Assembly: GCA_027451445.1 (NCBI GenBank)
Contig: DAIDJG010000536.1
Location: 1-64,000 of the forward strand
Length of the DNA stretch: 64,000 nt
From: Singulisphaera sp.
GTDB taxonomy: Bacteria; Planctomycetota; Planctomycetia; Isosphaerales; Isosphaeraceae
Direction: 5' to 3'
This document shows, one piece after another, positions 16,853 through 35,811 of this stretch; positions within the stretch are counted from its first letter, which is position 1, and the number at the start of each line of letters is the position of its first letter. Made by a program: the position numbers and the translations under genes. Under the pieces are notes generated by a model. It had not been told where the DNA came from. It saw only the letters and a program-made list of their open reading frames with translations, and searched no databases.

Positions 16853-16926
16853 GGTGGGTGTGGCCTAGCGGTTAAGGCGCCAGATTGTGGATCTGGATAT
16901 CGCGGGTTCGAATCCCGTCATCCACC
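16853..16926 (+). tRNA. tRNA-His (anticodon GTG)
   Basis: A full cloverleaf can be drawn. The acceptor stem GTGGGTG (16854-16860) pairs with CATCCAC (16919-16925), with the histidine-specific extra G(-1) at 16853 facing C73. The D arm is GCCTAGCGGTTAAGGC, the anticodon arm CCAGA-TTGTGGA-TCTGG carries GTG, and the T arm is GCGGG-TTCGAAT-CCCGT. CCA is not encoded. The 3' part from 16881 is the attachment core of the integrated element, so the gene is restored by the element. Its original downstream sequence and terminator now lie at 35.8 kb. Confidence 0.96.
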
Positions 16927-18245
16927 CTAGCCGACTCGATCCGACTACGACCGCCAAGAACCGACCCCACAAGGGGTTGTGACTTGGCGGTCATTTCGTT
17001 GGTAGACGCCTCCAATCCGCCAGTAACCGTCAGTTTCCGGCTCAATCCGTCCTCTGCGGTGGGCAAATGGTGGGCAAAGCCACCGCTTATATGTTTCCCA
17101 TCCGTGCCCGTCGCGTGGGCCGAAGCCGGCTCATCTTTGCGGGGTGGCGTGGTGAGGTCGGGAAGCCCCTCAACGGCGCCGGCTACGTCGTGGAGGTTGA
17201 GGCGGGCATACACCCCCATGGTCAAGCGCGGGTCCGAATGTCGGGCCAGGGTCTGGATGACCTTCAGGGGGGCGCCGGTCTTTGAGAGCTCCGTGATGTA
17301 GGCGTAGCGAAGCGAGTGCATGTCGACCACTTCGCCGCGCTCGTTCACGTCCTTGATGCCGGCGCGTGCCAGATCCTTGCGGAGCATGATGCAGGTCGCT
17401 TTGGGCACGTGACCGAACAGGGGTTCCCCGGGCGCCTTGCGGTCTAACCAGGCTCGAAGCGCTGGTACCAGGCTCGGCGGGATCGGCTGCGTAGCCTCAT
17501 GCTTGTTTTTCGTGTAACCGCACCGTGCGATGATCGCGGGAGTCGCGTCGTCGAGGCGGAACGACTGGCGTGCGAGCCTCTGCATCTCGGTACGCCGCAA
17601 TCCTGTGACGGCCCCGACCAAGTACATGGCGGCCCGGTCCGGCCCCGACACTCCTCGCCACTCGGGGGCCTGGCGGGTCACGTCAAGCAAGGTTCGTAAC
17701 TCATCGGCCGAGAGGGGGCAACGGATACGCCGGCGGTCGCTCTTGACGTCGCCACGCTCCAAACCCCGGAGTGCGTAGTCGCCACAGCGACCGTCATCCC
17801 AGAGCCACTTGCTGAGAGCCTTGGCGGCTGTGATGTAGGAGTTGAGCGTCCGGACCGAAAACTCCTCGACGTCGCGTAGCGTGCCTATCACCGACAGCAC
17901 CGCCGAGGGGGTGAGGTCGCCGATCCGCTCGAGTTTGCCGTCCCGGATTACGCGCTCGAGGTAAGTGCGGGTCTGGTCGATGTGCTGCTGGTTGCGGCCC
18001 TTGTCGACCATCGTGCCGATGAACTCGTCCACGTGCTCCTGGATCGGCCGGCGGGACTCTTTGAGGATGCGGAGCGTCTTTGGGTCCAACTCGCCGGACC
18101 GGATGCGGTGGGCCTCCGTCTCGGCGTGGCGGGCCATGGCCTCGGTCTCGCGTCGGTCTGGGCAACCAGCCGACTCACGTTTGACGCCGTTGGCGTCGGT
18201 GTACCTATAGTGCCAAACCCGTCCGCGTTTTCTAAGCGATGCCAT
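16872..18245 (-). CDS. Tyrosine recombinase / integrase of the tRNA-His element (integrated form)
   Basis: 457 residues from ATG 18245 (MASLRKRGRVWHYRY); 14 more residues would be read from 18287. An N-terminal Arm-binding-like segment and core-binding domain (about 65-165) precede the catalytic domain: Arg217 in TGLRRTE, a Lys in TKNKHEATQPIP, His310 and Arg313 in MHSLRYA, His336 in ARHSDPR and the nucleophile Tyr346 in GVYARL. All catalytic residues are present. The last 17 or so residues are encoded by the antisense of tRNA-His and end LAP. The reading frame crosses the attachment core: in the excised circle it would continue after Leu455 into the frame at 35764-35528, giving about 533 residues. 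Transcription is opposite to the tRNA. Confidence 0.95.
   Translation of the reverse strand: MASLRKRGRVWHYRYTDANGVKRESAGCPDRRETEAMARHAETEAHRIRSGELDPKTLRILKESRRPIQEHVDEFIGTMVDKGRNQQHIDQTRTYLERVIRDGKLERIGDLTPSAVLSVIGTLRDVEEFSVRTLNSYITAAKALSKWLWDDGRCGDYALRGLERGDVKSDRRRIRCPLSADELRTLLDVTRQAPEWRGVSGPDRAAMYLVGAVTGLRRTEMQRLARQSFRLDDATPAIIARCGYTKNKHEATQPIPPSLVPALRAWLDRKAPGEPLFGHVPKATCIMLRKDLARAGIKDVNERGEVVDMHSLRYAYITELSKTGAPLKVIQTLARHSDPRLTMGVYARLNLHDVAGAVEGLPDLTTPPRKDEPASAHATGTDGKHISGGFAHHLPTAEDGLSRKLTVTGGLEASTNEMTAKSQPLVGSVLGGRSRIESARVDDGIRTRDIQIHNLAP
16881..16927 (+). repeat. attL core (47 bp)
   Basis: Identical over 47 bp to 35765-35811. It spans the anticodon arm through the 3' end of tRNA-His plus one base. 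The flanking bases differ on both sides (C/T on the left, T/C on the right), which defines the limits. It also encodes, on the opposite strand, the residues IRTRDIQIHNL near the end of the integrase. Confidence 0.95.
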
Positions 18246-18316
18246 GGAGGCCTCCTTCGGCGCAGGGCGCCGGCATGATGCGCGCACTGTCGGCGCGGGT
18301 CAAGTAGGAACTTGAG

Positions 18317-21010
18317 TCAACAGGAAGCGCCGAACGCTTCGAGTGGCGGAGCAGTAGGGTCGAGAGTGATGACACGCGTACCCCAAGCGGTCACACGGCC
18401 GACAACCTCACTTCGTCGGGTCACAGGAGGTGAGTCATGCAAGCGGTGAGGATGACGAGGATGAACGAGGATGTTTTGGCCGGTCTCCGTACGTGTTGAC
18501 GTATCACCACACGTATTCAAGTAGTTATGAGATCGGAAATCTTCCGCGCTAGGGGTAAAACATCCTCGTTCATCCTCGTCATCCTCACCGCTAGGTTTGG
18601 AGTTTGGGGGGGTTGAGTCGGATCGGGTAACTCGCCAGAGTTTCGCCCGATGCTTTTCGCCCGCGAGGCGGAAGCATAGCCCCGCGATGAAACTGTCCTT
18701 CATTCCGCGAAGGATCTTGCCGAGGCTTTGCCCGTCGATGGGTTTTCCGGAGCGCTCGAGGCTCGATAGGGCGTCCCGCATCGTCGGAAAGTCCGACTCT
18801 GACCCCTCCGCCAGCAACCGTAGAGCCTGCTTGACCGTGATCCCAGTGTCACCACCGGGGAGCTCGAGCCATCCTTCGAGCAACGCCACCTTGGCGCGTC
18901 GAGAGTCAGAGTCGGCCGCTACCTCCAGCCTGGTTGCGCAGCAATCGAGCCCGGTCGCAAACCACGTCGCCCCTCGTACACATCGGTCCCACGCCTCATA
19001 CGAACCCAGGAGTGGCCAACCTCCGTTGGGATGACCGGCCAACGCGTGGGCCTTTAGGATCGTCAGGACGTCCCCGATTCGGTTGGGGCGTGATTCGCGG
19101 ATGTAGGTGCGCAGGTCCTTGATGTGGATGTCGTCCCGCTCTTCGGGATATTCGAGTGGTGTGACGAGCCGACATGGAAGCCACCGGCGGTAAGCGTCTT
19201 TGGTCGGGGTGATGTTGTTGCCCGATAAGAACCAGGTGAGGCGCAGCGGCAATTCGCCAGTCAGAGACGGCGTGCCGAGGATACGGCCGTTCACGGAGTC
19301 GGAGGTCAACGCGGAGTCGAGCGCCGAATTGCCGTAACTGGATCCCTCATCCAGGTTGTCGAAATGAACAGTACGTTGACCGCTCAGGGCAAGCGCGATC
19401 TTGACCTTATCCGCTTCAACGGAATCTCGCGGGTACGCGGTCGACGGTACGCAACGCCCGTAAGCCGTCAACCCGATGGTGTCGATCAAGATTCCCTTCC
19501 CGGATCCAGCCTTGTTGCCGATCAACGCAACGCCCGGGACGGGCCCGGGAATCGCTGGCCGCGCGACCTCAGTAAGGAGTGCCGAAAGGTAAACCGCCCA
19601 GTCGTTCTCCGTCTCGAACGGGAATTGTCGGACCGGCTCACGAAGTCTCTCAGCGGCGGCGATCGCATCGTCTCGGGTTGGTTCGGCGGGGATCGGCGGA
19701 AAGTCGATCGATGGCCGGTACATGATGCCGGTTGCCGGGTCATAGCCGGGCGTGTCAACGATCGTCCCGTCCGGGCGCGGGAACGGACACTCCGACACAG
19801 CTACCAAAGGTCGAACGCCTGGGTACTCTTTGGTCGCGGCGATGGCGCGAATCAGCCAGTTTGGCGGGTGGCAATCGACGGCGATTTCCTCACCGGCTTT
19901 ATCTCTCTTGACCTCAAAGAACGATGCGCAGCGCGTGAGTCTACAGCCGATCGTGGCTTCCGATAGCGTGATGACTTTTGGGGTCCCGAGTACCTGGTTC
20001 AGAAGCGTTCGACCCGTCAACGGCACTGCGTCCTTTGCCTCGCTCGTGATCGAGACGAGGGACCCACCGCGCTGGTATAGGCCTGGATCGCGGGCGAGCG
20101 TCGGAAGGGTCTCGGCCAACACGATGTCGCGTCGAGTGGTGACCTCGATGGCCGGGCGGTCGTCGGCGCCGGTCCCCGCCTGATTGTCGTTTAATTGGTC
20201 GACCGGGGGAGCGCTCCAAGGTGGCGTCGCATCAATGATCGCCCGTAGGCTCTCCGCGGTTTCGCCGACGTCGAACCAGTCGGAGACGTCGCCATGGTCT
20301 GGCAGCTCGGGGAGCTCGACAACCTTCACGCTGGCCGCAACCGGCGCGACGGATCGGGCAACCAGTTCGGCATGGTCCCGGCCGGGCTTGTCGTTGTCGG
20401 GCAAGATGACGACGTGGCGATCGGCCAGGTGGTCAGAGTATTCGTCCCGCCACTTCCCAGCTCCGCCAACGTTGCAGGTGGCCTTGAAGCCCTCGGCGCG
20501 GAGGCGGTCGACATCCTTTTCGCCCTCAACGATCACGATCACGCCAGCGTCGGAGGCAATGAGTTCGGGCAATCGGTACGGGACGAGCCGGACCCCTTTC
20601 ATGCAGCCCTTGCCAGTTCGCCAACCGCCGTTGCCGTCGGGTGGGTTCTGAAAGAAGTCCTTGGGACTGGTCCGGGTGACTCGGTAAAGCACACTCCCGG
20701 ACTCGTCACGGTAGAGGTACGTCGCGACGATTTCGGGGTGCCCGTTTGTCTTCGCGTGTCCGCTTCGCTCCGGGCCGGGCACGTGCTCCACACCACAGGG
20801 GCATTTACCACTCGAGCGGTGGCTCCACGTTTGGCTCCGTGGGTGGAACCTGGCGTTACCGGCGTGCTCTTCACGCGTGCAGTGGACCCATCCATCGAAA
20901 CCATCGAATCCAAAGCAACGTTGATCGTGGCCGCGGGGAAGATCCTCGTGACCTCCACAGACGGGGCACGGATGTTCGGCCGTGTGACGCTGCGGGGTGG
21001 TTGTCGTCAT
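18317..21010 (-). CDS. Primase-helicase-type replication protein (zinc finger, TOPRIM, helicase-like ATPase)
   Basis: 897 residues. The N-terminus has a zinc-binding CPVCGG (15-20) with further Cys/His to residue 44 and a second pair CPCG (70-73). A TOPRIM domain follows: VIVIVEGEKDVDRL (about 157-170) carries the Glu and VVILPDNDKPGRDH (200-213) the Asp pair. The C-terminal half has a Walker A GNKAGSGKG (498-506) and a Walker B-like VHFDNLDE (548-555). This order matches replication primases of phages, plasmids and phage satellites, so it probably replicates the excised element. Its start overlaps the small HTH gene upstream as ATGA. The last 90 residues are encoded by an inverted repeat region (18442-18592) and look poorly constrained. 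Confidence 0.85.
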   Translation of the reverse strand: MTTTTPQRHTAEHPCPVCGGHEDLPRGHDQRCFGFDGFDGWVHCTREEHAGNARFHPRSQTWSHRSSGKCPCGVEHVPGPERSGHAKTNGHPEIVATYLYRDESGSVLYRVTRTSPKDFFQNPPDGNGGWRTGKGCMKGVRLVPYRLPELIASDAGVIVIVEGEKDVDRLRAEGFKATCNVGGAGKWRDEYSDHLADRHVVILPDNDKPGRDHAELVARSVAPVAASVKVVELPELPDHGDVSDWFDVGETAESLRAIIDATPPWSAPPVDQLNDNQAGTGADDRPAIEVTTRRDIVLAETLPTLARDPGLYQRGGSLVSITSEAKDAVPLTGRTLLNQVLGTPKVITLSEATIGCRLTRCASFFEVKRDKAGEEIAVDCHPPNWLIRAIAATKEYPGVRPLVAVSECPFPRPDGTIVDTPGYDPATGIMYRPSIDFPPIPAEPTRDDAIAAAERLREPVRQFPFETENDWAVYLSALLTEVARPAIPGPVPGVALIGNKAGSGKGILIDTIGLTAYGRCVPSTAYPRDSVEADKVKIALALSGQRTVHFDNLDEGSSYGNSALDSALTSDSVNGRILGTPSLTGELPLRLTWFLSGNNITPTKDAYRRWLPCRLVTPLEYPEERDDIHIKDLRTYIRESRPNRIGDVLTILKAHALAGHPNGGWPLLGSYEAWDRCVRGATWFATGLDCCATRLEVAADSDSRRAKVALLEGWLELPGGDTGITVKQALRLLAEGSESDFPTMRDALSSLERSGKPIDGQSLGKILRGMKDSFIAGLCFRLAGEKHRAKLWRVTRSDSTPPNSKPSGEDDEDERGCFTPSAEDFRSHNYLNTCGDTSTRTETGQNILVHPRHPHRLHDSPPVTRRSEVVGRVTAWGTRVITLDPTAPPLEAFGASC
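18442..18592. repeat. Perfect 36-bp inverted repeat with internal iteron-like units, candidate origin
   Basis: Arms 18442-18477 and 18557-18592 are perfectly complementary over 36 bp, with 79 bp between. Each arm contains direct repeats of the unit GAGGATGA. Within the loop, ACGTGT and ACACGT pair again. The repeat lies inside the 3' end of the primase gene. Origins of element replication are often located at or in the initiator gene, so an origin is a reasonable guess; no experimental support is visible. Confidence 0.8.
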
Positions 21011-21249
21011 GACGCTCCCCCTGCCAACAGCGCGTCGAGTGCGTCAAGGTGCACGTAAAGCCCGCGACCGATCCTCTCGGTCTTGAGGCGTCCGGCGTCG
21101 ATGAGGCGTGTTACGGTCGCCACCGGGACGTCTGCCAGAGCGGCCGCGACCGCGACGGGGACGGTGGCTCGTGTGGGCCGAGGACCGGTGGGGGGATCGT
21201 GTGCGGGCCGCCCTTGCCGGGCGCGATGCTGCGATCTATCATGAACCAT
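21007..21249 (-). CDS. Small helix-turn-helix (MerR/excisionase-like) DNA-binding protein
   Basis: 80 residues. VAVAAALADVPVATVTRLIDAGRLKTERIGRGLYVHLDALDALL is a winged helix-turn-helix of the excisionase/AlpA kind: recognition helix VATVTRLID, then wing GRGLYV. The stop overlaps the primase ATG (ATGA), suggesting coupling. It may be the excisionase that directs the integrase, or a repressor of the replication gene. Two further proteins of the same type are in the element, at 21328 and 27174. Confidence 0.7.
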   Translation of the reverse strand: MVHDRSQHRARQGRPAHDPPTGPRPTRATVPVAVAAALADVPVATVTRLIDAGRLKTERIGRGLYVHLDALDALLAGGAS

Positions 21250-21327
21250 GTTGGAGATCCCGGTTGAAGCGCAATGAGGAAGTCGAGAGGACCCGTCGAG
21301 GGCACGGCGGGTCCTCTTTACGCGCGG

Positions 21328-21582
21328 TTACTTGGCGCCGCCGGCGTTGACCCAGGCGGCGATCGTCTCGGGCCGCCACAACGGCGCCCGCCCGATGCGC
21401 AAATCGGGTTGCGGGAACCGGCCCGCGCTACGCTCGCGCTCGAGGGTGCGACGCGAGATGTTGAGGGCTTTGGCAACGGTTTCGAGTCGCCATGCCAACA
21501 CCGCGGCGGTCAGAGTCGCCTGGGGTGTGACGGGATCCGGCGGTGGTGTGGGCGCCGGGAACGTCCGGAGGGCACGGGTCAT
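21328..21582 (-). CDS. AlpA/excisionase-like helix-turn-helix protein
   Basis: 84 residues. AWRLETVAKALNISRRTLERE then FPQPDLRIGRAPLWRPETIAAWV is the AlpA/DUF-type HTH pattern found in phage and satellite regulators. Proline-rich N-terminus. Its ATG overlaps the stop of a 59-codon ORF (21579-21758) as ATGA. Together with the gene at 21007 it forms a small regulatory block upstream of the primase. Candidate excisionase or transcription activator. Confidence 0.75.
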   Translation of the reverse strand: MTRALRTFPAPTPPPDPVTPQATLTAAVLAWRLETVAKALNISRRTLERERSAGRFPQPDLRIGRAPLWRPETIAAWVNAGGAK

Positions 21583-21758
21583 CGGGTGCCCCCTTTGGAT
21601 TCAGTGATGCCTGACTCGGATGTCTTCGGTGTCTGCTCGTTCGCGGCGCGAATCGAGAGTCGGTAGAGCGCCCGTAGCAGCCGGCCCTCACGGATGTGCT
21701 GGGCAAGGCGCTCACGGACCACTGGCGGGGACGGGATTAGGCTCTGCGTCTGGCTCAT
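21579..21758 (-). CDS. 59-residue conserved-type ORF of mobile elements
   Basis: A short ORF, ATG at 21758 with AGGAGG 8 bases upstream, stop overlapping the next ATG (ATGA). The product starts MSQTQSLIPSPPVVRERLA and contains HIREGRLLRALYRLSIRAA, an amphipathic helix pair. I recall proteins of this type beside HTH genes in planctomycete elements; function unknown. The ribosome site and the overlap are the main support. Confidence 0.6.
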   Translation of the reverse strand: MSQTQSLIPSPPVVRERLAQHIREGRLLRALYRLSIRAANEQTPKTSESGITESKGGTR

Positions 21759-21866
21759 CGGGTGATCCTCCTAGTGGTGGCAAGTCCACTCGGGATCACT
21801 CTACGGACGGCTTGTTACCGGCCCGTTACCGCTGAGTTACTTCTGAGTTACCGCTACGGTTTTTCC

Positions 21867-22745
21867 TCACGCTTTCACTTTGAAGACGCATCCGGATCCA
21901 GTCGTAAACTTGATGGGAACGCCGAACTCCACAAGAAAATCATTTGTCTTTGATGCGTTTGTCCGAATCGTTCCGTCGGAAGTTGTGTTGTCCCCATGAA
22001 CATGCTGCGCGACGTCATCGAAACTGGCGGATGTACGTTCGAGCATGAATTCTACGAGCGCGGCCTTCGTCGACGCCCCCTTCTTTTTCAGCTCTTGGAT
22101 TGCATCAACCTCCGTCATCTCGATCGTTGGAGTCGGCGGTGCGCCGCCATCTGATCGTCCCGGTCGATCGCCGGGAGCATGCCCGTCGTTCGGAGATAGA
22201 GTCTCATCGCCAGGCGGTGCCATAGGCTCCTCGGCCGCTACGTCGACGGATGGGGTCGGGACGTCCGCGGACGTGTCGATCGCCTCCAGGGTCGACTCTT
22301 GCCCCGGTGTTTGTGGTACCGGGAGACGATCGCCGAGGATCGCCGCGCGAAGTAGCCAAAGCCCTTCCAGGGGATTCCCGGACGCCTCGACGTCATGATC
22401 GACGTGCAAGCGCCTGGCGTGTGCGAGCGCGGCCGCAAGAAGGGCCTCCGGAGCGGCTTCCTGGTTGGACTCGAGCTCCTGGATCGTGGCTTCGTCATAC
22501 CGCCCTTCGAGCGGTCCACCACGGCGGTAGATTGCCTCGAAGATCCCGACGCGTTTAATCCAGGTTTCGAGCCATTCGAGGAGCGCGGCTTTGGACGTCG
22601 GCGCCTTGTCGGGTTGCCGCTCGTCTTTCCATCCGAACACGAGGTCGTCACGTTGAACGACCGGTAACGGCTTGCCCTGATCGTCAAGGAATGGGATAGG
22701 TTTGGCGTCCGGTGCGGGCGCCTGCTCGCGCGATGGGGTTGACAT
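21867..22745 (-). CDS. Hypothetical protein with C-terminal winged-helix-like end
   Basis: 292 residues from ATG 22745 (MSTPSREQAPAPDA). Residues about 40-170 are helical and charged (KAALLEWLETWIKRVGIFEAIYRRGG), followed by a long Pro/Ala/Asp linker (about 170-215). The last 85 residues (VDAIQELKKKGASTKAALVEFML, then DDVAQHVHGDNTTSDGTIRTNASKTND) look like a winged helix, with the wing near FTTGSGCVF. Possibly a DNA-binding regulator of the element. No known family recognised. It ends 108 bases before the 59-residue ORF. Confidence 0.5.
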   Translation of the reverse strand: MSTPSREQAPAPDAKPIPFLDDQGKPLPVVQRDDLVFGWKDERQPDKAPTSKAALLEWLETWIKRVGIFEAIYRRGGPLEGRYDEATIQELESNQEAAPEALLAAALAHARRLHVDHDVEASGNPLEGLWLLRAAILGDRLPVPQTPGQESTLEAIDTSADVPTPSVDVAAEEPMAPPGDETLSPNDGHAPGDRPGRSDGGAPPTPTIEMTEVDAIQELKKKGASTKAALVEFMLERTSASFDDVAQHVHGDNTTSDGTIRTNASKTNDFLVEFGVPIKFTTGSGCVFKVKA

Positions 22746-22891
22746 CTTGCACCATGCTTTCAAGGGCCGGTCCGTGTGGCGCGCCGGGCATGGTTCCGGA
22801 GCGCCACACGGTCCGCTTGGCCGTCCAGCTTGCAATCTGGACGACCGTCCCTCGCAGGTGATTCTACGCCCTTCGAACGGCCGTGGGAACG

Positions 22892-23206
22892 TCAGTTCAC
22901 CAGGACCTCTACGGGATCGGCGATGCGGCGGATTGTGGCCGGCAGTGCCTCCCAGGCGATGTAAAACAGGACTTCATCATCGCCGTAACGGACGTGTTCG
23001 TTCCGAACCTTCGTCACGGTCACATCGACATAGTGGACGCCTGGGACAAAGCGAAATCCGTCCGGGTAATCCTTGACCGCCTCGGCGAACCGGACCGTCT
23101 GCCCCACCGTCAGGCGCTCCCCGCGGTGGATTGGGATCACGGCATCGTGCCGCCGCCCACGTTGCATCTTCGTCAGTTCACAGTTGTCAATCGGGTACGT
23201 TCGCAT
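22892..23206 (-). CDS. Hypothetical small protein, possibly ASCH-like
   Basis: 104 residues. The N-terminus ELTKMQRGRRHDAVIPIH, the following LTVGQTVRFAEAVKDY and the strand VHYVDVTVTKVRNEHVRYGDDEVLF read as a small beta-barrel like the ASCH/DUF3850 fold. That fold usually binds RNA or nucleotides. The call rests on pattern only. Frame and composition are coding-like, and it lies in the minus-strand block of the element. Confidence 0.4.
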   Translation of the reverse strand: MRTYPIDNCELTKMQRGRRHDAVIPIHRGERLTVGQTVRFAEAVKDYPDGFRFVPGVHYVDVTVTKVRNEHVRYGDDEVLFYIAWEALPATIRRIADPVEVLVN

Positions 23207-23284
23207 GGTTGCACTCCATGGTGCAGGTTGTGGAGGCCGAGACGGGAACGCGACGATTCCCGCCTCTGGCCTTCTCTGGGTTCA

Positions 23285-23593
23285 TCAAGCCCACCAGGTC
23301 CGTCGTTCGGCGGGTGGCTGGTCATCTTGAATATCTTCCCTGATCGATTCGTGTGGTACACTTCCAGTGTGCGGCGGCAAAACCTTATGGGCCGCATCCT
23401 GCCTGGGGTTGCTCGGCGAAGGTTCCCGGAATCGAGCTTGAACGCTGGCACCGTTCCACTCAATTTCGCGAAGCCTTCCGAGCAAGGTGACGACGGTTTG
23501 CCTGACGCTCGGGATCCACATCAGGGCAATGGTGCCGCAACCAATGAGGCACCGGTAGACGAGCCAATCGGCCACGTCAACGTGTAACTGCAT
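23285..23593 (-). CDS. Possible small membrane protein
   Basis: 102 residues. One hydrophobic segment near the N-terminus (LVYRCLIGCGTIALMWIPSV) with a charged hydrophilic tail. No homolog recognised. It is in the minus-strand block but separated from neighbours. It could be spurious; only the membrane segment and frame length support it. Confidence 0.3.
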   Translation of the reverse strand: MQLHVDVADWLVYRCLIGCGTIALMWIPSVRQTVVTLLGRLREIEWNGASVQARFREPSPSNPRQDAAHKVLPPHTGSVPHESIREDIQDDQPPAERRTWWA

Positions 23594-23949
23594 TTCGCAC
23601 TTTCAATCAAAGGGTGCAGGGGACAGAAACGAGGTCCCGGTCTTTCATTGATGCGGTCGAGTGCGTTGAACCGATCGAGAAAGGCCGAATGGCCTCGTGA
23701 AACGCGAAGTGGAATTTCCTATTGTCAACAAGTCTACGACGGCATCGTCAAGGCAGCAAACCAAACGCAAATAAAAAACTCTTCGTTGTCGATACGATCG
23801 CTACAACCGTTAGTTCCAGAAAGTCCGGCACCGTCGCGGTCCGCAGGTTCTCTACCACCGGCGGAATCGCAACTCCACGCTCAGTTCCGACGCGGGAGTC
23901 AGTTAGCGCAAATTTGCGCTAACTGGTCTGCGGTGGGATGGCGGTGCGT
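23594..23949. other. Intergenic region with perfect palindrome
   Basis: About 355 bases with no ORF supported. Its one clear feature is the 26-bp palindrome at 23900-23925 just downstream of the minus-strand gene that ends at 23950. The rest is A-rich compared with the neighbourhood. Confidence 0.5.
23900..23925. promoter_or_regulatory. Perfect 26-bp palindrome, copy 1
   Basis: CAGTTAGCGCAAA followed by its exact reverse complement. A second copy with one mismatch is at 33702-33729 in the same element. There is no T-tract, so this is more like a protein-binding operator or a replication or packaging site than a terminator. Confidence 0.7.
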
Positions 23950-24789
23950 TCAAAACTCCGCGACAAGACCGGCGATCGCCCGCGCGAGCATGTCACGACG
24001 ACCTTCTGGGCACTCCCTTATTGCCTCCCGGATGCGAGGGGAGATGTCAGACCAGATTGCGTTGAACAGCTCCTCGTCTTCATCGGTAACGGGAGGGGTA
24101 ATCGGCTTGCTCTTCGGCTCGGGCGGCGCGGCCTTGGCTTTCACCTTCGCCACGGACGCCTTGACCTGTTTCGCCGTGGGAGTCTTGCCATCGGCGGATT
24201 TCGTCGCGTCCCGCCAGGCTTCACGCTGCTCTTCGGGTTCGAGGCCGGAGAGCGGCCGGAGTTGGGATTCGCGGACCTCCGGTGGAGGGGGCGGCGCGGA
24301 AGATTCGTCCACAATTGTGGACATTTTCAGCGAGGGCAGACCAATATTCTCGGCCGTTTCGCTGGCGTCGATGAGTTGATACGCTCGCGATTTCGCCATA
24401 TTCCATCGCGTCGAAACATACTCTTCAAACGTCGGGAACTCTGCACGATAGAGGCGTTGCTCCTTGATGCCGAGCAACGCCGAACCGACCTCGAGGAACG
24501 TGCGCATACCTTGTCTGATGGTTTCTTCGTGATGCTGGAGTCTGCTGTACTCGTCATCGGATAGCCGGTTTGGGCCGGGGGTGGTCGAAGCGTTTTCGGC
24601 GCCGACTGGCCTGAGAATCGGGCGTCGATTGCCTTGTGCCCTTCTGACTTCTCGTCGGCACTCGAGCGAGCAAACGTCAACGTTCTTACCCTGGTAGCGC
24701 TGAACCCAGGATGTGCGAGGACGCCCGCATACGAAGCAAGCCACCGTTTCAGTCCTCTCAGTTGGTGCCCATCTCCCCGCCGGCCACAC
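23950..24789 (-). CDS. Zinc-finger protein with ParB/KorB-like central segment
   Basis: 279 residues from GTG 24789, which has AGGAG nine bases upstream. The N-terminus has a zinc-binding pattern CFVCG...CSLECRR. The middle (EVGSALLGIKEQRLYRAEFPTFEEYVSTRWNMAKSRAYQLIDASE) is a segment I know from phage and plasmid regulatory or partition proteins that contain a helix-turn-helix. The C-terminus is charged and Ala/Lys-rich, then amphipathic. Possibly a regulator or a partition-like protein of the element. It sits just upstream of the palindrome copy 1. Confidence 0.55.
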   Translation of the reverse strand: MWPAGRWAPTERTETVACFVCGRPRTSWVQRYQGKNVDVCSLECRREVRRAQGNRRPILRPVGAENASTTPGPNRLSDDEYSRLQHHEETIRQGMRTFLEVGSALLGIKEQRLYRAEFPTFEEYVSTRWNMAKSRAYQLIDASETAENIGLPSLKMSTIVDESSAPPPPPEVRESQLRPLSGLEPEEQREAWRDATKSADGKTPTAKQVKASVAKVKAKAAPPEPKSKPITPPVTDEDEELFNAIWSDISPRIREAIRECPEGRRDMLARAIAGLVAEF

Positions 24790-24801
24790 GCCAGGCGGCT
24801 C

Positions 24802-25029: not shown

Positions 25030-25177
25030 GATTCGCTCCACCCTGTTCGCGTGCGTGGTCTGGTAGGAATCATCCCACGAGGGGATTCTATCCCACGTTT
25101 GGTTGAAGGTCAAACTCTGGTTTGGAAGTAATTTCTTATCGCTCGAAGAAAAATCGAGAATCGTGTTTGGTTTCTGG

Positions 25178-25206
25178 TTGACACCATAGTAAAACCGTAG
25201 TATAGT
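25178..25206 (+). promoter_or_regulatory. Sigma70-type promoter
   Basis: TTGACA (25178-25183), 17-bp spacer, TATAGT (25201-25206). This is the best consensus match seen in the window. It drives the plus-strand cluster that starts at 25312, through a leader of about 100 bases. The region 25030-25311 contains no other feature apart from this promoter and the hairpin. Confidence 0.75.
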
Positions 25207-25572: not shown

Positions 25573-25581
25573 AACCCTCAC

Positions 25582-27920: not shown

Positions 27921-27929
27921 GCGCTCGCC

Positions 27930-30014
27930 ATGCCAGATCGTGAATACAACCTGATATATAAGAGCGACAATACCGACATCCTGTCAAAGACCGCGCAAGT
28001 CATTGCGGCCTTGACGGCCCTTGACGCCATGGCCGTCAAGACGAATTCGAGCCTCAGTGGGTTTGCCGGCGGAGGCGGACGGTCGGCAGCCGCAGCGTCC
28101 CGGCAAATCCAAAAGCTCGACGCCGCGATGGTCGCCCTTCAGGCTCAGGCCGCCACAACAAGGAGCTCTCTGGCTAGCATCGGGAGCGGTCTCGGCGCGG
28201 TTAGTGGAAAAGCCGGGAGCGCCACGTCTGCCCTCGGGCGCTTCGGTGCCGCCGGTCTTGCCCTCGGCGCTGTCCATAAGGTTCTCGGCGACGTGCTTAA
28301 AGCCACGGAGGAACTTGAACAATACTGGAAATCGCTTTCAAAGGAAGCAATTGGGTTTCGCGATTCGCTCAGGGAACTCAAGGACATCACCGGCCATAAA
28401 GGCCCGACGGACAAGGTTGTCGAGAAGAACGTTCTCGACATTTCCAATGAAGCCCACATGATGCCGGCGGCGGCCCGGGAACTCTATCAGAGCGCCGAAA
28501 ACATCCTCCCGGCCGCGAGAGAGAAGGGCAACATTGTGCCCGAAGCGGGAGAGACCGTTGAAGAGCTTCAACATAAAATCATTGTTCAGGCCGCAAAGTT
28601 GGGGCGAGAGAAGGGAATCGACGAGGCGGCGGTTGGCGAGGCGGTAGGGACGGCTGCACTGTTCGGGAAGGTCCACAACGTCCAGGAAGCCATGGAGCCA
28701 CTCGGGACCGCATTCGAGGGTCTCAGTCGTGGAAACCTTCGCTACAGCACGGCCGTGCCAGCTCTGAACGAAGCGGCGGCCGCCATGGTGACACCCGAGA
28801 AAGCGGCTGCGGATGCAGAAAACGACGATGACGAGGGGAACCGGGCCAGGGCTGGAAGGCTCGGAAGCTATGGCGAAGCCGGCGTCTATATGGGTGTGGT
28901 TTCGTTGGGCACCGGCCAGCGCAACCCGCAAAAAGCCAAGGAACGCATGATCCAGGTCAGTCGGCTCCTCAACACGTCGTCCGACAAGGGACGCGCGGCC
29001 CTCAAGGGAGCCGGCATCACGGACGAAATGACAGACACCGACAAGCTCATTCAGTTGCGCAAGTACACGGATGAGCGAAGCGCGAAGGATAAGAAGTTCG
29101 ATACTCAGGATTGGCTCAAACAGAATAAACTTGGAAGCGACCGAACCCGGGAAGCGACCATCGCCGTGCTGAAAAATGCCGACGTGCTCGACACACGGCT
29201 CCGGGAGCTCGGGGTCGAGTCGTACCAGGATCGAAAGACCCCCGAGAAGCGCGCAGCCGCCCTAAAGATCCGGACCGAGACGGCCCGTAGGACGGTCGAA
29301 AACTCCAACAAGTTTGCGGAGAGCGATCCAACCGCACTCGCCGCTGGCGCGGAGTCCGCGAACAAGGTTTGGGAGCTTCAGACCGGTGAGGAGATGTCGG
29401 CATACGAAACCGCGAAACGATACGCCGACGTTCGAATGAAGTTCAAAAACCCAGCCCATATGGGCGTTGATCAGTGGGCACACCAGAACTTTTTCCAACC
29501 TTTCAACCTGATGGCATACGGAGAAGGCTCGAAGGAAATGCACCTGGTAGCGGGTTTTGAGTCGTCCGCCTCCGAGGGTAAGGAGTGGCACGGCACCGGT
29601 GCGCGTCCCACGCTCATCCGGGAAGGGAAAAAAGTTGGTGTGGACGTCGAGAGGCAGTTCCCCGAGGTCTACTCTCACGACCTTCCTACACGTGCGAAAG
29701 CGTTCGGGGAAGCCGCGCGGGCGGTCCAGGGCGCCGGGGGGGATCCGTACGCTGCCAAGGAGGTGCAGGCCTTTCAACGGCAGCGCATCCCTGGCTTCGG
29801 TACCGCGTCCGAACCCCCAGGGCAGCGCCAGCTCAACGATCCTGGAGTTGCCAGGGACGTCAATCAACTCGTGAAGGAAACGCAAGAAACGAACCGTCTA
29901 TTGCGTGATGGACTCCAACGCCCGGGCGGCGCCGGTGGCAGCATCCCACAGGGCGGCGGCCCGGTACCGGTGGCGCCCGTAAACATCCCAGGCCAAGGCC
30001 CTGTGAGGGAATAA
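27930..30014 (+). CDS. Phage-type tail tape measure-like protein
   Basis: 694 residues. The N-terminus has a coiled-coil/Ala-Gly-Ser-rich part (KLDAAMVALQAQAATTRSSLASIGSGLGAVSG then ALGRFGAAGLALGAV), with the expected small hydrophobic stretch, and a long helical remainder. This is the appearance of tail tape measure proteins. If real, its length would give a tail of about 100 nm by the rule of 1.5 angstrom per residue. The 3' end overlaps the next gene by one base (TAATG). No lysozyme or peptidase domain is evident. Confidence 0.65.
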   Translation: MPDREYNLIYKSDNTDILSKTAQVIAALTALDAMAVKTNSSLSGFAGGGGRSAAAASRQIQKLDAAMVALQAQAATTRSSLASIGSGLGAVSGKAGSATSALGRFGAAGLALGAVHKVLGDVLKATEELEQYWKSLSKEAIGFRDSLRELKDITGHKGPTDKVVEKNVLDISNEAHMMPAAARELYQSAENILPAAREKGNIVPEAGETVEELQHKIIVQAAKLGREKGIDEAAVGEAVGTAALFGKVHNVQEAMEPLGTAFEGLSRGNLRYSTAVPALNEAAAAMVTPEKAAADAENDDDEGNRARAGRLGSYGEAGVYMGVVSLGTGQRNPQKAKERMIQVSRLLNTSSDKGRAALKGAGITDEMTDTDKLIQLRKYTDERSAKDKKFDTQDWLKQNKLGSDRTREATIAVLKNADVLDTRLRELGVESYQDRKTPEKRAAALKIRTETARRTVENSNKFAESDPTALAAGAESANKVWELQTGEEMSAYETAKRYADVRMKFKNPAHMGVDQWAHQNFFQPFNLMAYGEGSKEMHLVAGFESSASEGKEWHGTGARPTLIREGKKVGVDVERQFPEVYSHDLPTRAKAFGEAARAVQGAGGDPYAAKEVQAFQRQRIPGFGTASEPPGQRQLNDPGVARDVNQLVKETQETNRLLRDGLQRPGGAGGSIPQGGGPVPVAPVNIPGQGPVRE

Positions 30015-30610
30015 TGGACGAAGAACCGAAAAACGACCCTGGCTCCGAACAACCCTCCGATCCACCACTTCCCCCCGACGCCCCCACGCCTCGCGAGCGG
30101 ATGCGGAAAGCGTTCCGGCCTGGCGTGAAGCTCGTCGACCGCCACCGGCGGCTTTGGATCTTGCCGTGGTCCGGGATCTCACCGATCCTTTCTGAGGTCA
30201 GGGATAAGGTCTTTGATCTGTGCGCGCTCCGAAAGTCCGTTGGTATGACGGATCTCTACTATGCCTGCTCTATTCTTATTCAAGCAAACTATGATGTTGA
30301 CGATAAGGAAGTCGATGACATCATGACGGTGTGCGACGAACAAGAACTCGGCCGGGCCACGATCACGGCCCTGATCGGTCCGCAGCAGTTCCGGAGGACT
30401 CTCACCAACTGGATCGCAGCGTCTTTCTTCGCCAATGGCATCAATCCCGAGATTGTTCCGGCGGCCATGATTCCACATGTGATGTTTATTTTGGTCCGCA
30501 CCGGTCGAACGCTCGATCAAGAGTCCTACATCGAGTCGTGCGAGGCGGCCGGCAAGCGTGCGGCGCTGCTCCGTCAGTTTCAAATGCCGATGGGGCCGCC
30601 CCCCCAGTAA
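30014..30610 (+). CDS. Hypothetical protein of the tail module
   Basis: 198 residues. Proline- and acid-rich N-terminus (DEEPKNDPGSEQPSDPPLPPDAP) precedes a helical domain (LYYACSILIQANYDVDDKEVDDIM, then FRRTLTNWIAASFFANGINP). Overlaps the tape measure stop by one base. I do not recognise the family. The position directly after a tape measure would suit an assembly chaperone in phages, where the chaperone usually precedes it, so this is only a positional guess. Confidence 0.5.
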   Translation: MDEEPKNDPGSEQPSDPPLPPDAPTPRERMRKAFRPGVKLVDRHRRLWILPWSGISPILSEVRDKVFDLCALRKSVGMTDLYYACSILIQANYDVDDKEVDDIMTVCDEQELGRATITALIGPQQFRRTLTNWIAASFFANGINPEIVPAAMIPHVMFILVRTGRTLDQESYIESCEAAGKRAALLRQFQMPMGPPPQ

Positions 30611-30620
30611 GGAGTATCGC

Positions 30621-31073
30621 ATGGCCAGCATCCCGACCCTCATCGGAGAGCTTCAACGCTTTTGCGACGCGTTCGACTTCACGACCCCCGGCTTGGCCGA
30701 CGAGATTGCTGAGGCAGCCGCGGCGGGAATCGCGGTCAACATGGACGCAGAGCAGGACCCGGACGGTAACGCCTGGCCTGCGCTCTCGCCAGCTTACGAG
30801 GCCTGGAAGAGTGCTCACTTCCCGGGGCAGGAAATGGCGGTCTTACGTGGGGCCATGAAGACCGCTCAGCAGCTCAAGGGCGAAGTCGTCGCGACGCCCG
30901 GTGAAATAAAGCAAACGTACGGAGTGGACCCGCAGGCCCGCCAGGAGGCGACCCAGTTCCAGGAGGGTGATGCAAACCAACCTCCGCGGCCCTTCTACGC
31001 CTTCAGCAATGTCGCGGTCATGCTCGTCGACCAGGTCCTGGATCGTCGGTTTGACGTGGTTGTGCCTCCGTGA
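30621..31073 (+). CDS. Phage virion morphogenesis / tail-completion-like protein
   Basis: 150 residues, ATG 30621 with AAGGAG. MDAEQDPDGNAWPALSPAYEAWK and RPFYAFSN match the pattern of phage tail completion/virion morphogenesis proteins (PF05069-like: DPDGxxWxxLSPxY and RPFLGxS). In those phages the protein helps connect or complete the tail. The C-terminal segment (SNVAVMLVDQVLDRRFDVVVPP) is repeated in degraded form at 33595-33669, downstream of the next gene. Confidence 0.7.
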   Translation: MASIPTLIGELQRFCDAFDFTTPGLADEIAEAAAAGIAVNMDAEQDPDGNAWPALSPAYEAWKSAHFPGQEMAVLRGAMKTAQQLKGEVVATPGEIKQTYGVDPQARQEATQFQEGDANQPPRPFYAFSNVAVMLVDQVLDRRFDVVVPP

Positions 31074-31140
31074 CCCCATGTGCGTAAACCTCCGCAAATC
31101 TGCTCGACGCTCTCACAGACTTTCATATGAGGCTGCCGCG

Positions 31141-33564
31141 ATGCCAGTTTCCGACCCGTTTATTCCACAGCCAGACCAGAATGGTCAGACACCATCATGT
31201 CGCCCCTGCATCCCCATCAAGGTTTACCAGTGGGATGGTGAGTCGGACCCGGTCGAGTTCCCGAACGTGCGATGCCTGTCGATTCAGCAGACCCTCGGCC
31301 CCGATCCTGGCATGGCCGTGTTCCGGTACGTGTTCGACCAGCGCCCGTCCTCCCCAGGCCCCTACTACGTCGAGCAGGCCCTCAGTACGAACTACAACGG
31401 TCCGTACGTGATCACGCCGGCCATGCGGCTCTTGGTCTCGGCTACCCAACCGGACGGCACCCTGGTGTACATCTTCGACGGGATCGTGCTCGAGTTCGAC
31501 GGCATGATCGGGGGCGAGACCGAGGGTGTCACGTTTGAGGCCCAAGGGATCGCGTTGCACGCGTTTGATGATAAGGTGCAGGACGTGTTACAGCGTGACT
31601 GTGACGCGCCGACAACAGTCTCCGATGTCAAGGTCCAAAAGGTTCCGCAGTTCAACCCACGCGGCAAACCGAACCGTTGTCCTGATGACGCCAACTCGGG
31701 CACCCCACCGAACGATTACCCGGTGTTCCTCGATCCCACCTTGATCGGCCAATCAGAGGACGAACAGGATATCGAGGACGACAGTCCCGACCAGTCCGAC
31801 GACGCCGATCCTCCCGACCAATCCGAGACCGGCGCTCCCCAGCAGCTCTGGCGTCTCCACGATGCCGCCCGGTACCTACTCTTCCGCCACAACGCCCCTC
31901 CGGACGACGGTAGTGCGCCGTATGTCCAGAACCCCAAGGGCGAAGACCTCGATGCGCTCCTGATCTCCAGGGAGCCGATCAACGACGATTCCTTTGACCC
32001 CGGCGACTCCTCCACCTATAACGCCAAGGCGATCATTGTCCCCGACACGCCGTTCCTGGGCATGGCGTGGCCGACGTTGATCGACAAGCTCATCGAGCCC
32101 TACGGGTTCGCGTGCTGGTTCGCACTCTCTACCCGCAACCCTGACCAGAACTCCGAGTCCGACAGCGGCGGCGGCAGCGCCCCCACTCCCCAAACTGATT
32201 TCAAGATCCAGCTCAAGCAGCTCGCCCCCACCAAGCAGCTCGCCCTCCAGCAACGCCGCACCTTCAAGCAGTACAGCCCATTCGAGGCCAGCACGACGAA
32301 CCTCGGTGAGGCGCAGCTTGGCCGCGACCTCCGTCCGGTCCGAAACAAGATCATCGTCATGGGGGGTCTGAAGGAATACGAGTGTTCGTTGGTCCTGGCA
32401 CCGGCCTGGCAGTCGAGCGCGGACGACCTGGACAACCTCAGCAGCTTCCTGTCCACTGACGTTGCCTTTGCGACCGGAGAAACGTACAACGCGTACAGGA
32501 CCTGGATCTTCGATGAGGCGGGTGACGGCCACTATCCCAACGCGGTCTCGTCGGACAGGTCAAACACCGTTCCGAGCCTGGACGCCGTCTTCGGCAAGGG
32601 CAACTACGTGAAGAGTCATCGCCCGCCAATCGGGCAACTTTTCCAAAAGGACATCGCTGGCAAGGCACTCCAGTACCGGCTCTCGATGAGCGACGACTAC
32701 CCGGGTCCCTACCCGGCCGTCTGGGATGGCTCCGGAACCTGGCGGCATGTCAACGGTGGATTCCGGATGCTGCGCGACCGGATCGGGATCCGGGTGACGA
32801 TCAACAACCCAAATGCATGGTCGGTCGGGACCGCCAACCAGGGTAGCGACTTCCTCAAATCCTCGGTCGTCAAGATCATTGACTGTTTTGCGAACCCAAG
32901 CACGCCCGGCCCGACCGCCGCAAACCCCAACTTCTTTCTCAGGTTGACGTGCGTCATCAAGGGAGATCAGTGCATCGTCTCAATGCCCCCCCGGGCGGTC
33001 TCGTCGGCGCTCAACTATGATGTCGAGGAGATCGTTGATGCCAGGGATCGGTTCCACTACCAGGAGCGGAGTGCGAACTCGGAGTTCAACACGACCGACA
33101 AGGCTGTTGTGATTCGGGACGATACCAGCAAGATGGACGCCGAATCGAAGGCGCGTCGCAATGACCTGGAAGCCGGCGTCTTCGATGCCGAAATCCACAT
33201 TCCGAGGTTCACGACCTATTACGACCTGTGCGACCGCATCGACCAGATCGAGGGCCGTGATCTCTACCTGCGAACCGACAACGGCGGTCCCCGCTCGGCA
33301 CCAGTCTACCCGATCGTGATTGCGCGCCGGTGGGACTTCACGAACGGCCAACACACCTTCCTGACTTTATCCGATCGCGGCATGCACCATGGACGTCAGT
33401 CGGGCCGGGCGGAGCGGCTGAAGCGAAAGGCCAACACCATCAAGCGCACGGCCAAGGAAGCGGCCGACCTGGTGGGGCGTCACCCGTCCGAGCGTAAACA
33501 CGTTGGTTCGACATCCCTCAAGGGCGGCCTTTCGACAACGGACCCCGATCGCATGAGGTCATAG
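31141..33564 (+). CDS. Large tail-hub or baseplate-like protein
   Basis: 807 residues from ATG 31141. The N-terminal part (CLSIQQTLGPDPGMAVFRYVFD, then LLVSATQPDGTLVYIFDGIV) resembles a tail hub/late-control-D beta domain that binds the tail tube end. An acidic insert (EDEQDIEDDSPDQSDDADPPDQ) lies near 210. The rest is beta-rich and ends with a Lys/Arg-rich tail (LKRKANTIKRTAKEAADLV). I recognise the overall tail-hub-like pattern rather than a family. No lysozyme fold is evident. Confidence 0.45.
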   Translation: MPVSDPFIPQPDQNGQTPSCRPCIPIKVYQWDGESDPVEFPNVRCLSIQQTLGPDPGMAVFRYVFDQRPSSPGPYYVEQALSTNYNGPYVITPAMRLLVSATQPDGTLVYIFDGIVLEFDGMIGGETEGVTFEAQGIALHAFDDKVQDVLQRDCDAPTTVSDVKVQKVPQFNPRGKPNRCPDDANSGTPPNDYPVFLDPTLIGQSEDEQDIEDDSPDQSDDADPPDQSETGAPQQLWRLHDAARYLLFRHNAPPDDGSAPYVQNPKGEDLDALLISREPINDDSFDPGDSSTYNAKAIIVPDTPFLGMAWPTLIDKLIEPYGFACWFALSTRNPDQNSESDSGGGSAPTPQTDFKIQLKQLAPTKQLALQQRRTFKQYSPFEASTTNLGEAQLGRDLRPVRNKIIVMGGLKEYECSLVLAPAWQSSADDLDNLSSFLSTDVAFATGETYNAYRTWIFDEAGDGHYPNAVSSDRSNTVPSLDAVFGKGNYVKSHRPPIGQLFQKDIAGKALQYRLSMSDDYPGPYPAVWDGSGTWRHVNGGFRMLRDRIGIRVTINNPNAWSVGTANQGSDFLKSSVVKIIDCFANPSTPGPTAANPNFFLRLTCVIKGDQCIVSMPPRAVSSALNYDVEEIVDARDRFHYQERSANSEFNTTDKAVVIRDDTSKMDAESKARRNDLEAGVFDAEIHIPRFTTYYDLCDRIDQIEGRDLYLRTDNGGPRSAPVYPIVIARRWDFTNGQHTFLTLSDRGMHHGRQSGRAERLKRKANTIKRTAKEAADLVGRHPSERKHVGSTSLKGGLSTTDPDRMRS

Positions 33565-33594
33565 AAGCAATCGAATGGCGTACATTAAGACCTT

Positions 33595-33669
33595 TTTCTT
33601 CCGTCAACGACGTCGCGGTGATGCTCGTGGGTCCTGGATCGCCGATTCGACGCTGTCGTCCCGCCATGA
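33595..33669 (+). pseudogene. Degraded duplicate of the end of the tail-completion gene
   Basis: The frame reads SVNDVAVMLVG and, after a shift, VLDRRFDAVVPP and stop. It corresponds to 31001-31073 (SNVAVMLVDQ...VLDRRFDVVVPP) with a short deletion that breaks the frame. The pair flanks the tail-hub gene as an imperfect direct repeat of about 70 bp. Confidence 0.75.
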
Positions 33670-33701
33670 CATCCCCCAACTTACCACCCTTATGCCAGGT
33701 A

Positions 33702-33729
33702 CCAGTTAGCGCAAATTTGCGCGAACTGG
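33702..33729. promoter_or_regulatory. 28-bp near-palindrome, copy 2
   Basis: CCAGTTAGCGCAAA followed by its complement with one mismatch (A in the left arm faces G in the right). It shares the 26-bp core of 23900-23925. It lies in the gap before the terminase-small-like gene. No T-tract. Confidence 0.7.
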
Positions 33730-33823
33730 GGTCCGGCGGAATCCGCGGCGTGGCGTAACCCGTCCGACTTGATGAACACCGGTATCCCAGATACGCTTGA
33801 CGAGACCTCACGAGGATCCACCG

Positions 33824-34606
33824 ATGCCCGCACGGCCCGCCAAAACTCCTGCCACGGTCACCTTCCAGAATCCCTGGGAGCGGCGACACGGTGAGTCCGC
33901 GAGCGCCTACAGGGCCTTCCAGGTCTACCTGCACCTGGGACCGTCCAGGACCCTCGACGATGCGTCCATCGCCTATCGGGCGGCAAACGAATCGGGGGTC
34001 AAAAGTGGGTCAAAAGTGGGTCAAGAACCCCCCCGAAAAAGGCCCCTAAGTAGCCGCATCTCGGAGTGGTCCCGTCAATTCGCCTGGACCGAGCGTGCGA
34101 CCGCCTACGATCGTCATCTCGATCACGTCGAATCCGAGGAGCGCCGTCGGCTCGACGAGGAACGACGGGTCTCGTGGGTCCAGAAGGATGAGAAGCGGCT
34201 CGAGCAGAACTGGTCGATTGCGGCCCAGTTGAAGATCAAAGCCCTCCAGATGCTGGGATGGTCACTAGACGGCGAAGTGAGGACCGTCAAGGTGCTCAAC
34301 GACGATGGTAGCGTGACCGAGCAAAAGGTCGTGGTCGCGCCAGCCTGGCGGATGCGGGATGCCGCAACCCTCCTCGGAATGGCGAACCTCCTTGAGCAGA
34401 CCGTCATTGGGGCCATTGCGGGTAAGCAGTCCGAAGCTCCAACGGCCGCCGAGCAGATCACGGACGAATCCCTCGAAGGTGCGGAAAAACGGCTATTCGA
34501 GTGGCGCAAAAAAGTGCGCAACCGCATCAATGAAATACGGGAAGACTCACCCTACGATCCGGGTGACGGTCCCGGGAAACCGGTCGAGCCATTGCCAGAT
34601 CACTAA
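33824..34606 (+). CDS. Terminase-small-subunit-like or phage DNA-binding protein
   Basis: 260 residues from ATG 33824, preceded by GAGGAT. Pro-rich N-terminus; ESASAYRAFQVYLHLGPSRTLDDASIAYR then ISEWSRQFAWTERATAYDRHLDHVE is the HTH-plus-coiled-coil pattern of small terminases in actinobacterial and planctomycete phages. The helical middle and C-terminus (WRMRDAATLLGMANLLEQTV) fit oligomerisation. No large terminase follows. It could package DNA in trans, as satellites do. Confidence 0.6.
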   Translation: MPARPAKTPATVTFQNPWERRHGESASAYRAFQVYLHLGPSRTLDDASIAYRAANESGVKSGSKVGQEPPRKRPLSSRISEWSRQFAWTERATAYDRHLDHVESEERRRLDEERRVSWVQKDEKRLEQNWSIAAQLKIKALQMLGWSLDGEVRTVKVLNDDGSVTEQKVVVAPAWRMRDAATLLGMANLLEQTVIGAIAGKQSEAPTAAEQITDESLEGAEKRLFEWRKKVRNRINEIREDSPYDPGDGPGKPVEPLPDH

Positions 34607-34651
34607 CCCCTCGGTCGCCATGCTGGCGATCGCTAACCGATAGGTGTACCC

Positions 34652-35122
34652 ATGCATACGAACGCCAATGTCCAATTCGCCTGGAACGCTCTCGGCTGTC
34701 CCTCCCTGGTTACGCTCGCGAGGGAGCTCGGCCTCCCGATCTCGGCCTTCCGTCTCGTGAACGGTGTCCCGACGCTCGCGCAGCCGAGTCCCGCCCCGAC
34801 CCCTTCGACGAGCTCGGTCGCGACCGGCGGCATGACCGACAGCCAGCGGTCCCTGCAGGCCCAACTCGACAGCATCGGCGCCCGGTTGGCCGCGGATCGG
34901 GAGGCCCGGGCCCGGGAGCGTCTGGCCGAGGAGGCCGCGACTCCACGCCAACCCACCCCCGACGAGCTCGCCCGGCACCGGACCCTGATGGCGCTGGCCG
35001 GACGGTGCGGGGTCCCGGTGATGGGTGTCAACGACGAAGCGGCCCAGCAGTCCGACGAGTACCAGGCCACCGTGGGGTGGATCAACCGCGGCAACCGCCA
35101 GTTCGCCAATCAGGCCCGCTGA
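34652..35122 (+). CDS. Hypothetical protein with helical C-terminal half
   Basis: 156 residues, ATG 34652 with AGGTG. Starts MHTNANVQFAWNALGCPSLV; the middle is Ala/Pro-rich and the second half helical (LQAQLDSIGARLAADREARARERLAEEAATP) with GVPVMGVNDEAAQQSDEYQATVGWI. Not recognised. It is in the plus-strand cluster between the terminase-like and the 94-residue genes. Confidence 0.5.
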   Translation: MHTNANVQFAWNALGCPSLVTLARELGLPISAFRLVNGVPTLAQPSPAPTPSTSSVATGGMTDSQRSLQAQLDSIGARLAADREARARERLAEEAATPRQPTPDELARHRTLMALAGRCGVPVMGVNDEAAQQSDEYQATVGWINRGNRQFANQAR

Positions 35123-35215
35123 CACCGCCGTCGGTACAGTTTGGTTTTCGAGGCCGCCACCGGGCACCGTTTGCCCTGGGGCGGCCCGTCAGCGCTTCCG
35201 AGGGAGCAAGCGGCG

Positions 35216-35500
35216 ATGTCGATGGTCGATCGCTCTGGTAGCCGTGTAGAGGCTCACAAGGATCCCGCGCTACGAGGCCACAACATCACACTGGCCGAGG
35301 CTCGACGGCTGCACGACATCCTGATCGTGATCCTCCACCGTCTCATCGGGCTCTCTGTGCCCGACGTGAGCGTGGTGTTGACCCGCGGAGCAACCCCGAA
35401 CCACGTGTACAAGCGCCTCAGAGAATGCCCCATGTCGTCGGAGGATGCGGTCAACCAGCTCCGCACCTGGATCCGGTCGGGGGCGTTGCGGGCCAGTTGA
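35216..35500 (+). CDS. Small HTH-like protein
   Basis: 94 residues from ATG 35216, preceded by AGGGAG. GHNITLAEARRLHDILIVILHRLIG then PDVSVVLTRGATPNHVYKRLRECP suggests a helix-turn-helix. It ends 27 bases before the detached integrase segment on the opposite strand. Possible late regulator of the element. Confidence 0.55.
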   Translation: MSMVDRSGSRVEAHKDPALRGHNITLAEARRLHDILIVILHRLIGLSVPDVSVVLTRGATPNHVYKRLRECPMSSEDAVNQLRTWIRSGALRAS

Positions 35501-35527
35501 CCCGCCCGAGGCTCTCCATCGGTTCGC

Positions 35528-35767
35528 CTACTTGCGACCCGCGCGTTTTCGCTTCTTGTCGCCCTCACCATGGGTGGATGGAGCCGACGCCCGTACCATC
35601 GCGACCATGCCGGCCCGGACCGCCTCGGGGAGTTCGCCCCACCGCTCCACGATCAACGCGAGGTCGGGATCGGTTTGACGGGTGTCGGTGGGCACAGGGT
35701 GGGCAAGCGACAATGGAGGTTGACGTAAGTCGTTGGAATGAGTCTGGTTGCGGGAATCGGGGTTCAG
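35528..35767 (-). pseudogene. Detached 3' segment of the integrase gene (attP-side C-terminal tail)
   Basis: From the Leu codon at 35765-35767 in the attachment core, the minus-strand frame continues for 78 codons to a stop at 35528. It is in the same frame as the integrase when the element is closed as a circle. It encodes NPDSRNQTHSNDLRQPP, then DPDLALIVERWGELPEAVRA and GMVAMVRAS, then a Lys/Arg-rich end. This tail resembles the C-terminal motif I associate with planctomycete integrases. In the integrated state it has no start of its own, so it is unexpressed or expressed only by chance. Confidence 0.85.
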
Positions 35768-35811
35768 ATTGTGGATCTGGATATCGCGGGTTCGAATCCC
35801 GTCATCCACCC
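35765..35811 (+). repeat. attR core (47 bp)
   Basis: Perfect copy of 16881-16927, holding the displaced original tRNA-His 3' end. It is followed directly by the former downstream sequence of the tRNA gene and its terminator. Confidence 0.95.

Follow-up and report, generated by a model that had tools for sequence, protein, structure and literature searches.

An integrase gene of Planctomycetota phages and islands that very probably contains its own attP and exchanges its C-terminal tail on integration

An integrated element at a tRNA-His gene

The window, a 64,000-nucleotide stretch of a Singulisphaera sp. contig (DAIDJG010000536.1), contains an integrated element bounded by a 47-bp exact direct repeat in the window sequence (Table 1). 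The attL copy of this repeat forms the 3′ part of an intact tRNA-His gene. PHROGs matches within the element included integrase, primase/helicase-like and small-terminase-like genes, and the integrase itself matched PF00589 (5e-13) and a PHROG integrase (6e-38). A tRNA-Pro(CGG) called by ARAGORN at 35719-35812 was rejected as a false call, an artefact of the tRNA-His fragment at attR.

Table 1. Features of the integrated element and its attachment sites, in window coordinates.
Feature	Position	Strand	Remarks
Intact host tRNA-His (GTG), integration target	16854..16927	+	ARAGORN, Rfam
Tyrosine integrase, integrated form, 457 aa	16872..18245	-	ATG at 18245 (alternative GTG at 18287); gene end inside the tRNA
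Integrated element, 18.9 kb	16881..35811		Between both core copies; basis, 47-bp exact repeat and PHROGs matches
attL core, 47 bp	16881..16927		Antisense reading in the integrase frame, VDDGIRTRDIQIHNL
Putative arm-type tandem repeat GGTGGGCAAATGGTGGGCAA	17058..17077	+	Integrase side of the core, within coding sequence
Tail portion of the integrase remaining at attR (78 codons and a stop)	35528..35764	-	Continues the integrase frame across the core
Conserved two-helix tail motif DPDLALIVERWGELPEAVRAGMVAMVRASA	35582..35683	-	Profile match 1.5e-17; helical hairpin predicted for a phage homolog
Matching putative arm-type repeat GGTGGGCACAGGGTGGGCAA	35687..35706	+	Tail side of the core, within the tail frame
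attR core, 47 bp, identical to attL core	35765..35811		Exact repeat

Several further repeats were apparent in and around the element. Hairpins followed by T-rich sequence were located at 16949-16999, on the element side of attL, and at 35823-35864, in the host DNA beside attR; a replacement terminator for the tRNA-His gene may come with the element. A near-perfect inverted repeat at 18445-18589 (GGTGAGGATGACGAGGATGAACGAGGATG.../...CATCCTCGTTCATCCTCGTCATCCTCACC) occupied the 3′ end of the primase-like gene adjoining the integrase, and its comparison with Rfam returned only a sub-threshold mir-598 match. Two copies of a palindromic repeat (CAGTTAGCGCAAATTTGCGCTAACTG), a possible operator or replication site, were found within the element at 23900-23939 and 33703-33742.

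In its integrated form, the integrase frame runs antisense through the tRNA gene and ends ...IHNLAP, with its stop at 16872. Joining the sequence left of attR, the core and the sequence right of attL in silico gave a single 533-aa frame with the same ATG, reading ...VDDGIRTRDIQIHNL-NPDS...DPDLALIVERWGELPEAVRAGMVAMVRASA...GRK and continuing for 78 codons beyond the core to a stop at 35528. The excised circle of this element is thus a reconstruction deduced from sequence. R217, K246, H310, R313, H336 and Y346, corresponding to the R-K-HxxR-H-Y catalytic set, were invariant in the family alignment. The whole catalytic domain, including Tyr346, stays with the N-terminal part after integration and only the C-terminal tail is removed. 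The first-pass annotation had followed the integrase frame across both cores, with an attL form ending Leu-Ala-Pro-stop, and had placed Tyr346 in both an integrated and a longer rejoined protein. All its coordinates agreed with the repeat and the ORF reading, joining the element ends reproduced both protein lengths as well as the tail and its stop, and Tyr346 proved to be present in both forms.

The tail in cellular genomes, rejoined elements and phages

Tail homologs were detected in 42/294 Planctomycetota genomes by single-sequence search and in 149/394 genomes (126/273 genera) using a 35-column profile. Nucleotide entropy at the three codon positions of 75 non-redundant tails was 1.11/0.80/1.59, third positions being the freest, and conservation was confined to the reading frame that continues the integrase. 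A tryptophan was found in 75/75 of these tails, and key leucines in 73-74/75, encoded by 5-6 different codons. This combination of one conserved frame, free third positions and synonymous leucine codons indicates that the tail is translated and under protein-level selection. The tail had no match among Pfam, NCBIfam or PDB families, and a search of the PDB with the tail profile gave chance-level matches only. The window tail, a consensus tail and a full phage integrase had zero matches in INPHARED and PLSDB, two collections that contain few planctomycete elements, so these results do not establish that the tail is limited to the phylum. Divergence of the tail was not correlated with that of the integrase (Mantel r = 0.08, 303 of 5000 permutations), for which the possible reasons are that tails are exchanged, that so short a sequence is saturated, or that the role of the tail is generic. 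Long tail frames considered as possible fusions (L116-L120) were rejected as chance open frames.

In cellular genomes, the tail was separated from the integrase, lying at the opposite end of the element and following a piece of tRNA sequence. The peptide preceding most of the cellular tails examined was tRNA-derived, usually antisense (DGIRTRD, GLEPATFSLGS, TRTDDPLINS) and sometimes sense. A perfect tRNA T-arm occurred ≤350 bp upstream of the tail in 40/62 cases, compared to 0/62 for an equal stretch downstream and 2/62 further upstream.

We reconstructed the unintegrated gene from a sample of 60 tails, most of them on long contigs, by taking the DNA downstream of each tail, where the model places the remainder of the element followed by the integrase, and by matching the upstream flank of the tail to the integrase end for core detection. 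None of the tails fetched had an integrase domain in its own frame, and the integrases found beyond the tail were nearly all on the predicted strand (the same strand as the tail). A tRNA-like core was identified in 37 elements, comprising the window, two more in the genome of the window and 34 elsewhere. When rejoined, 35/37 gave one open integrase-core-tail ORF, in frame (chance 1/3; binomial, 6e-15). The single-ORF reconstructions with usable integrases represented 22 clusters at 50% integrase identity; therefore, relatedness does not explain this result. The two others in the genome of the window, L247 (G000:C20) and L248 (G000:C117), both restored a single integrase-core-tail ORF. Beyond the 37, the additional elements found with a tRNA-like core did the same (5/5). 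The out-of-frame reconstructions were L069 and L071, the latter possessing a tail but with a frame shift or stop in the linker. Three elements (L065, L093, L297) were left out of the frame statistic, since their longest repeat proved to be of the arm type and did not represent the core. For L266 and about 20 other tails, the region retrieved contained no integrase or core. Integration replaced a median of 69 tail residues after the core with a median of 12 host-derived residues (range 0-229).

Uncut forms of the gene were found in phages. Two IMG/VR phage contigs (L125/L126) encode a 492-aa integrase with the tRNA-like peptide and the tail as one ORF, and this phage also carries terminase, portal-like, major head and head-morphogenesis genes. 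Integrase and tail also share one ORF in the phage contig L153 (2e-10), in L142/L143 and L149 with weaker profile support (0.002-0.004) and, by eye only, in L172 and L173. In one phage contig (L184:3-1222), the integrase and tail were adjacent but in different frames, for which a frameshift, error or decay is offered as the reading. A reading of G525 and G526 as circular permutations of one phage was rejected, as the two contigs share 26,322 bp and extend in opposite directions; no claim of circularity is made. Among about 80 cellular integrases of the tail-bearing family, a single one (L328) was contiguous with a tail. Limnoglobus roseus and Lacipirellula limnantheis are among the planctomycetes with integrases of this family.

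The first-pass annotation had named as its check whether the 78-residue tail is a homologous integrase C-terminus. That it is one, and no chance open frame, is borne out by the homologs detected across the phylum with both searches, by the in-frame reconstructions and by the fused genes of the uncut phage contigs. Its case was understated, in that this is a recurrent system and not one element. The annotation had also suggested that the two forms could differ in activity or stability.

attP within the integrase gene and relation to known systems

The sequence GGTGGGCA-NNN-GGTGGGCAA occurs exactly twice in the window (0 expected); one copy lies to either side of the core, and each falls inside the reconstructed frame. 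Unusually long element-specific words were common to both core sides in 24/35 elements, as expected for putative arm-type sites. We are highly confident that the complete attP, i.e. the core plus the putative arm repeats, lies inside the integrase gene and that integration swaps the conserved two-helix tail for host-encoded residues. The AlphaFold model of a phage homolog consisted of a lambda-type body predicted with confidence, for which lambda integrase (1z1b) was the best PDB match, a disordered segment of 72 residues (389-460) corresponding to the attP-encoded part, and a two-helix hairpin (463-489, pLDDT about 73-91). A disordered linker would follow from the need to encode attP within the gene.

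The planctomycete enzyme shares the catalytic residues, the three-domain body and the core plus putative arm-type sites of lambda-type heterobivalent tyrosine integrases. Lambda has its attP outside int, and its integrase is the same protein before and after integration, whereas here attP lies inside the integrase gene. The archaeal suicidal integrases (SSV, pT26-2 and pTN3-type) have att in the gene at a tRNA, and their split has been proposed as a built-in directionality factor; they are described as exclusive to archaea (PMC8371274). As in these, attP is within the planctomycete integrase gene and integration partitions it. However, the archaeal split separates the catalytic and N-terminal parts into two inactive pieces, whereas the planctomycete catalytic enzyme stays whole and only its C-terminal tail is exchanged. 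The archaeal suicidal integrases also carry PF16795 (Phage_integr_3), whilst the window integrase matched PF00589 only.

Mycobacteriophage BPs and relatives carry attP within the repressor gene, and the repressor of the free phage bears a degradation tag, resulting in integration-dependent immunity (PMC4557955). The two systems are alike in having attP inside an ORF, with an extra C-terminal segment on the free-phage product and a shorter prophage product. In BPs, however, the altered gene is the repressor and the segment an ssrA-like tag, whereas here it is the integrase itself that changes and the segment is a conserved helical motif. The integration state of ICEKp1 is reported to switch the integrase promoter and alter expression (PMC13023037); both integrases would be state-dependent, with ICEKp1 changing the promoter and not the protein sequence. 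The planctomycete system belongs neither to the archaeal suicidal integrases nor to mycobacteriophage integration-dependent immunity. Our literature search turned up no case of a bacterial integrase whose conserved tail is swapped at attP, and a precedent is possible in the subscription literature, much of which lay outside the search.

Possible functions of the tail exchange

Because the tail is selected though disconnected in every ordinary integrated copy, it must act while the gene is whole, in an infecting or excised genome. Prior to integration, the gene on the circle or infecting phage genome would produce a full-length enzyme made up of the lambda-type body, the attP-encoded disordered linker and the two-helix tail. 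On integration into the tRNA gene, the tail codons are displaced to the opposite element end, leaving an integrase that keeps its own upstream region and whose C-terminus consists of tRNA-encoded and a few arbitrary host-encoded residues. The tail may serve a step confined to before or during integration, e.g. attP-attB synapsis or the building of the attP complex; once it is lost, the back-reaction between attL and attR may proceed less readily until an excision factor becomes available. Excision would restore the tailed enzyme, making the swap a self-executing directionality switch. The exchange is most simply read as such a built-in switch, with a tailed enzyme before integration and a tailless one afterwards, and we put the chance of this at even or a little under. 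Counting against the switch are the uncorrelated divergence of tail and integrase, the out-of-frame reconstructions of L069 and L071, and the absence of any family or PDB match that might point to a function. The broader proposal, a self-editing integrase lineage of Planctomycetota phages and islands in which each integration or excision rewrites the enzyme, so that the tailed form integrates and the tailless form maintains or excises, is offered as tentatively.

The tail could alternatively be needed in both directions, in which case the tailless enzyme would be inactive and the element locked until full-length enzyme arrived from a superinfecting relative or a tandem array. This follows the same logic as the archaeal suicidal integrases (PMC8371274), and L328 (2-1147) offers a candidate source, with its contiguous integrase-tail gene upstream of a second integrase that has the same core-derived peptide; this is apparently the junction of a tandem array, where the full-length gene would be restored. 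G231:C18 has elements in tandem as well, but the upstream integrase there uses a different frame. We nevertheless regard such a lock as unlikely, since the integrated gene keeps its entire catalytic domain, unlike the archaeal split of catalytic and N-terminal parts, and the tail is predicted to hang on a long disordered linker, as a piece of the active site would not. The adjacent G231:C18 elements (L105) share one tRNA, and the core is translated in a different frame by each of their integrases (GLEPSTFSLEG and RDSNPQHSAWKA).

It is less probable still that the tail is a timer of stability or of the lysis-lysogeny decision, making the free-phage integrase less stable or less active until integration relieves this effect. 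The geometry is that of mycobacteriophage BPs, whose repressor gene contains attP and whose repressor, as encoded by the virus, has a C-terminal degradation tag (PMC4557955). However, the conserved part of the planctomycete tail is an internal two-helix motif, whilst the extreme C-termini of the tails inspected were variable and often basic, with no recurrent ssrA-like end.

We consider it very improbable that the tail is a separate small gene next to attP, in frame by coincidence. Although it occupies a short ORF of its own in integrated elements, this is contradicted by the stop-free passage through the core in 35/37 rejoined elements, by the true phage fusions and by the many linkers that lack a start codon near the tail. 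An incidental open frame is scarcely credible: tRNA-derived peptides such as DGIRTRD are common at integrase ends, and this would account for the core peptide but not for a conserved motif beyond it with synonymous variation.

Over a third of the sampled Planctomycetota genomes hold what amounts to a bacterial counterpart of the suicidal integrases, in which the catalytic domain stays whole and the tail alone is exchanged. If the tail sets direction, tyrosine recombination would be controlled without a separate step, as the product of the reaction alters the enzyme. If these integrases are self-editing, directionality would be determined by rearranging the very DNA that encodes the integrase, and elements residing together at one tRNA could swap tails as well, because the tails lie beyond the crossover. 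Annotated planctomycete integrases often lack their true C-terminus, which is relevant to testing or engineering them.
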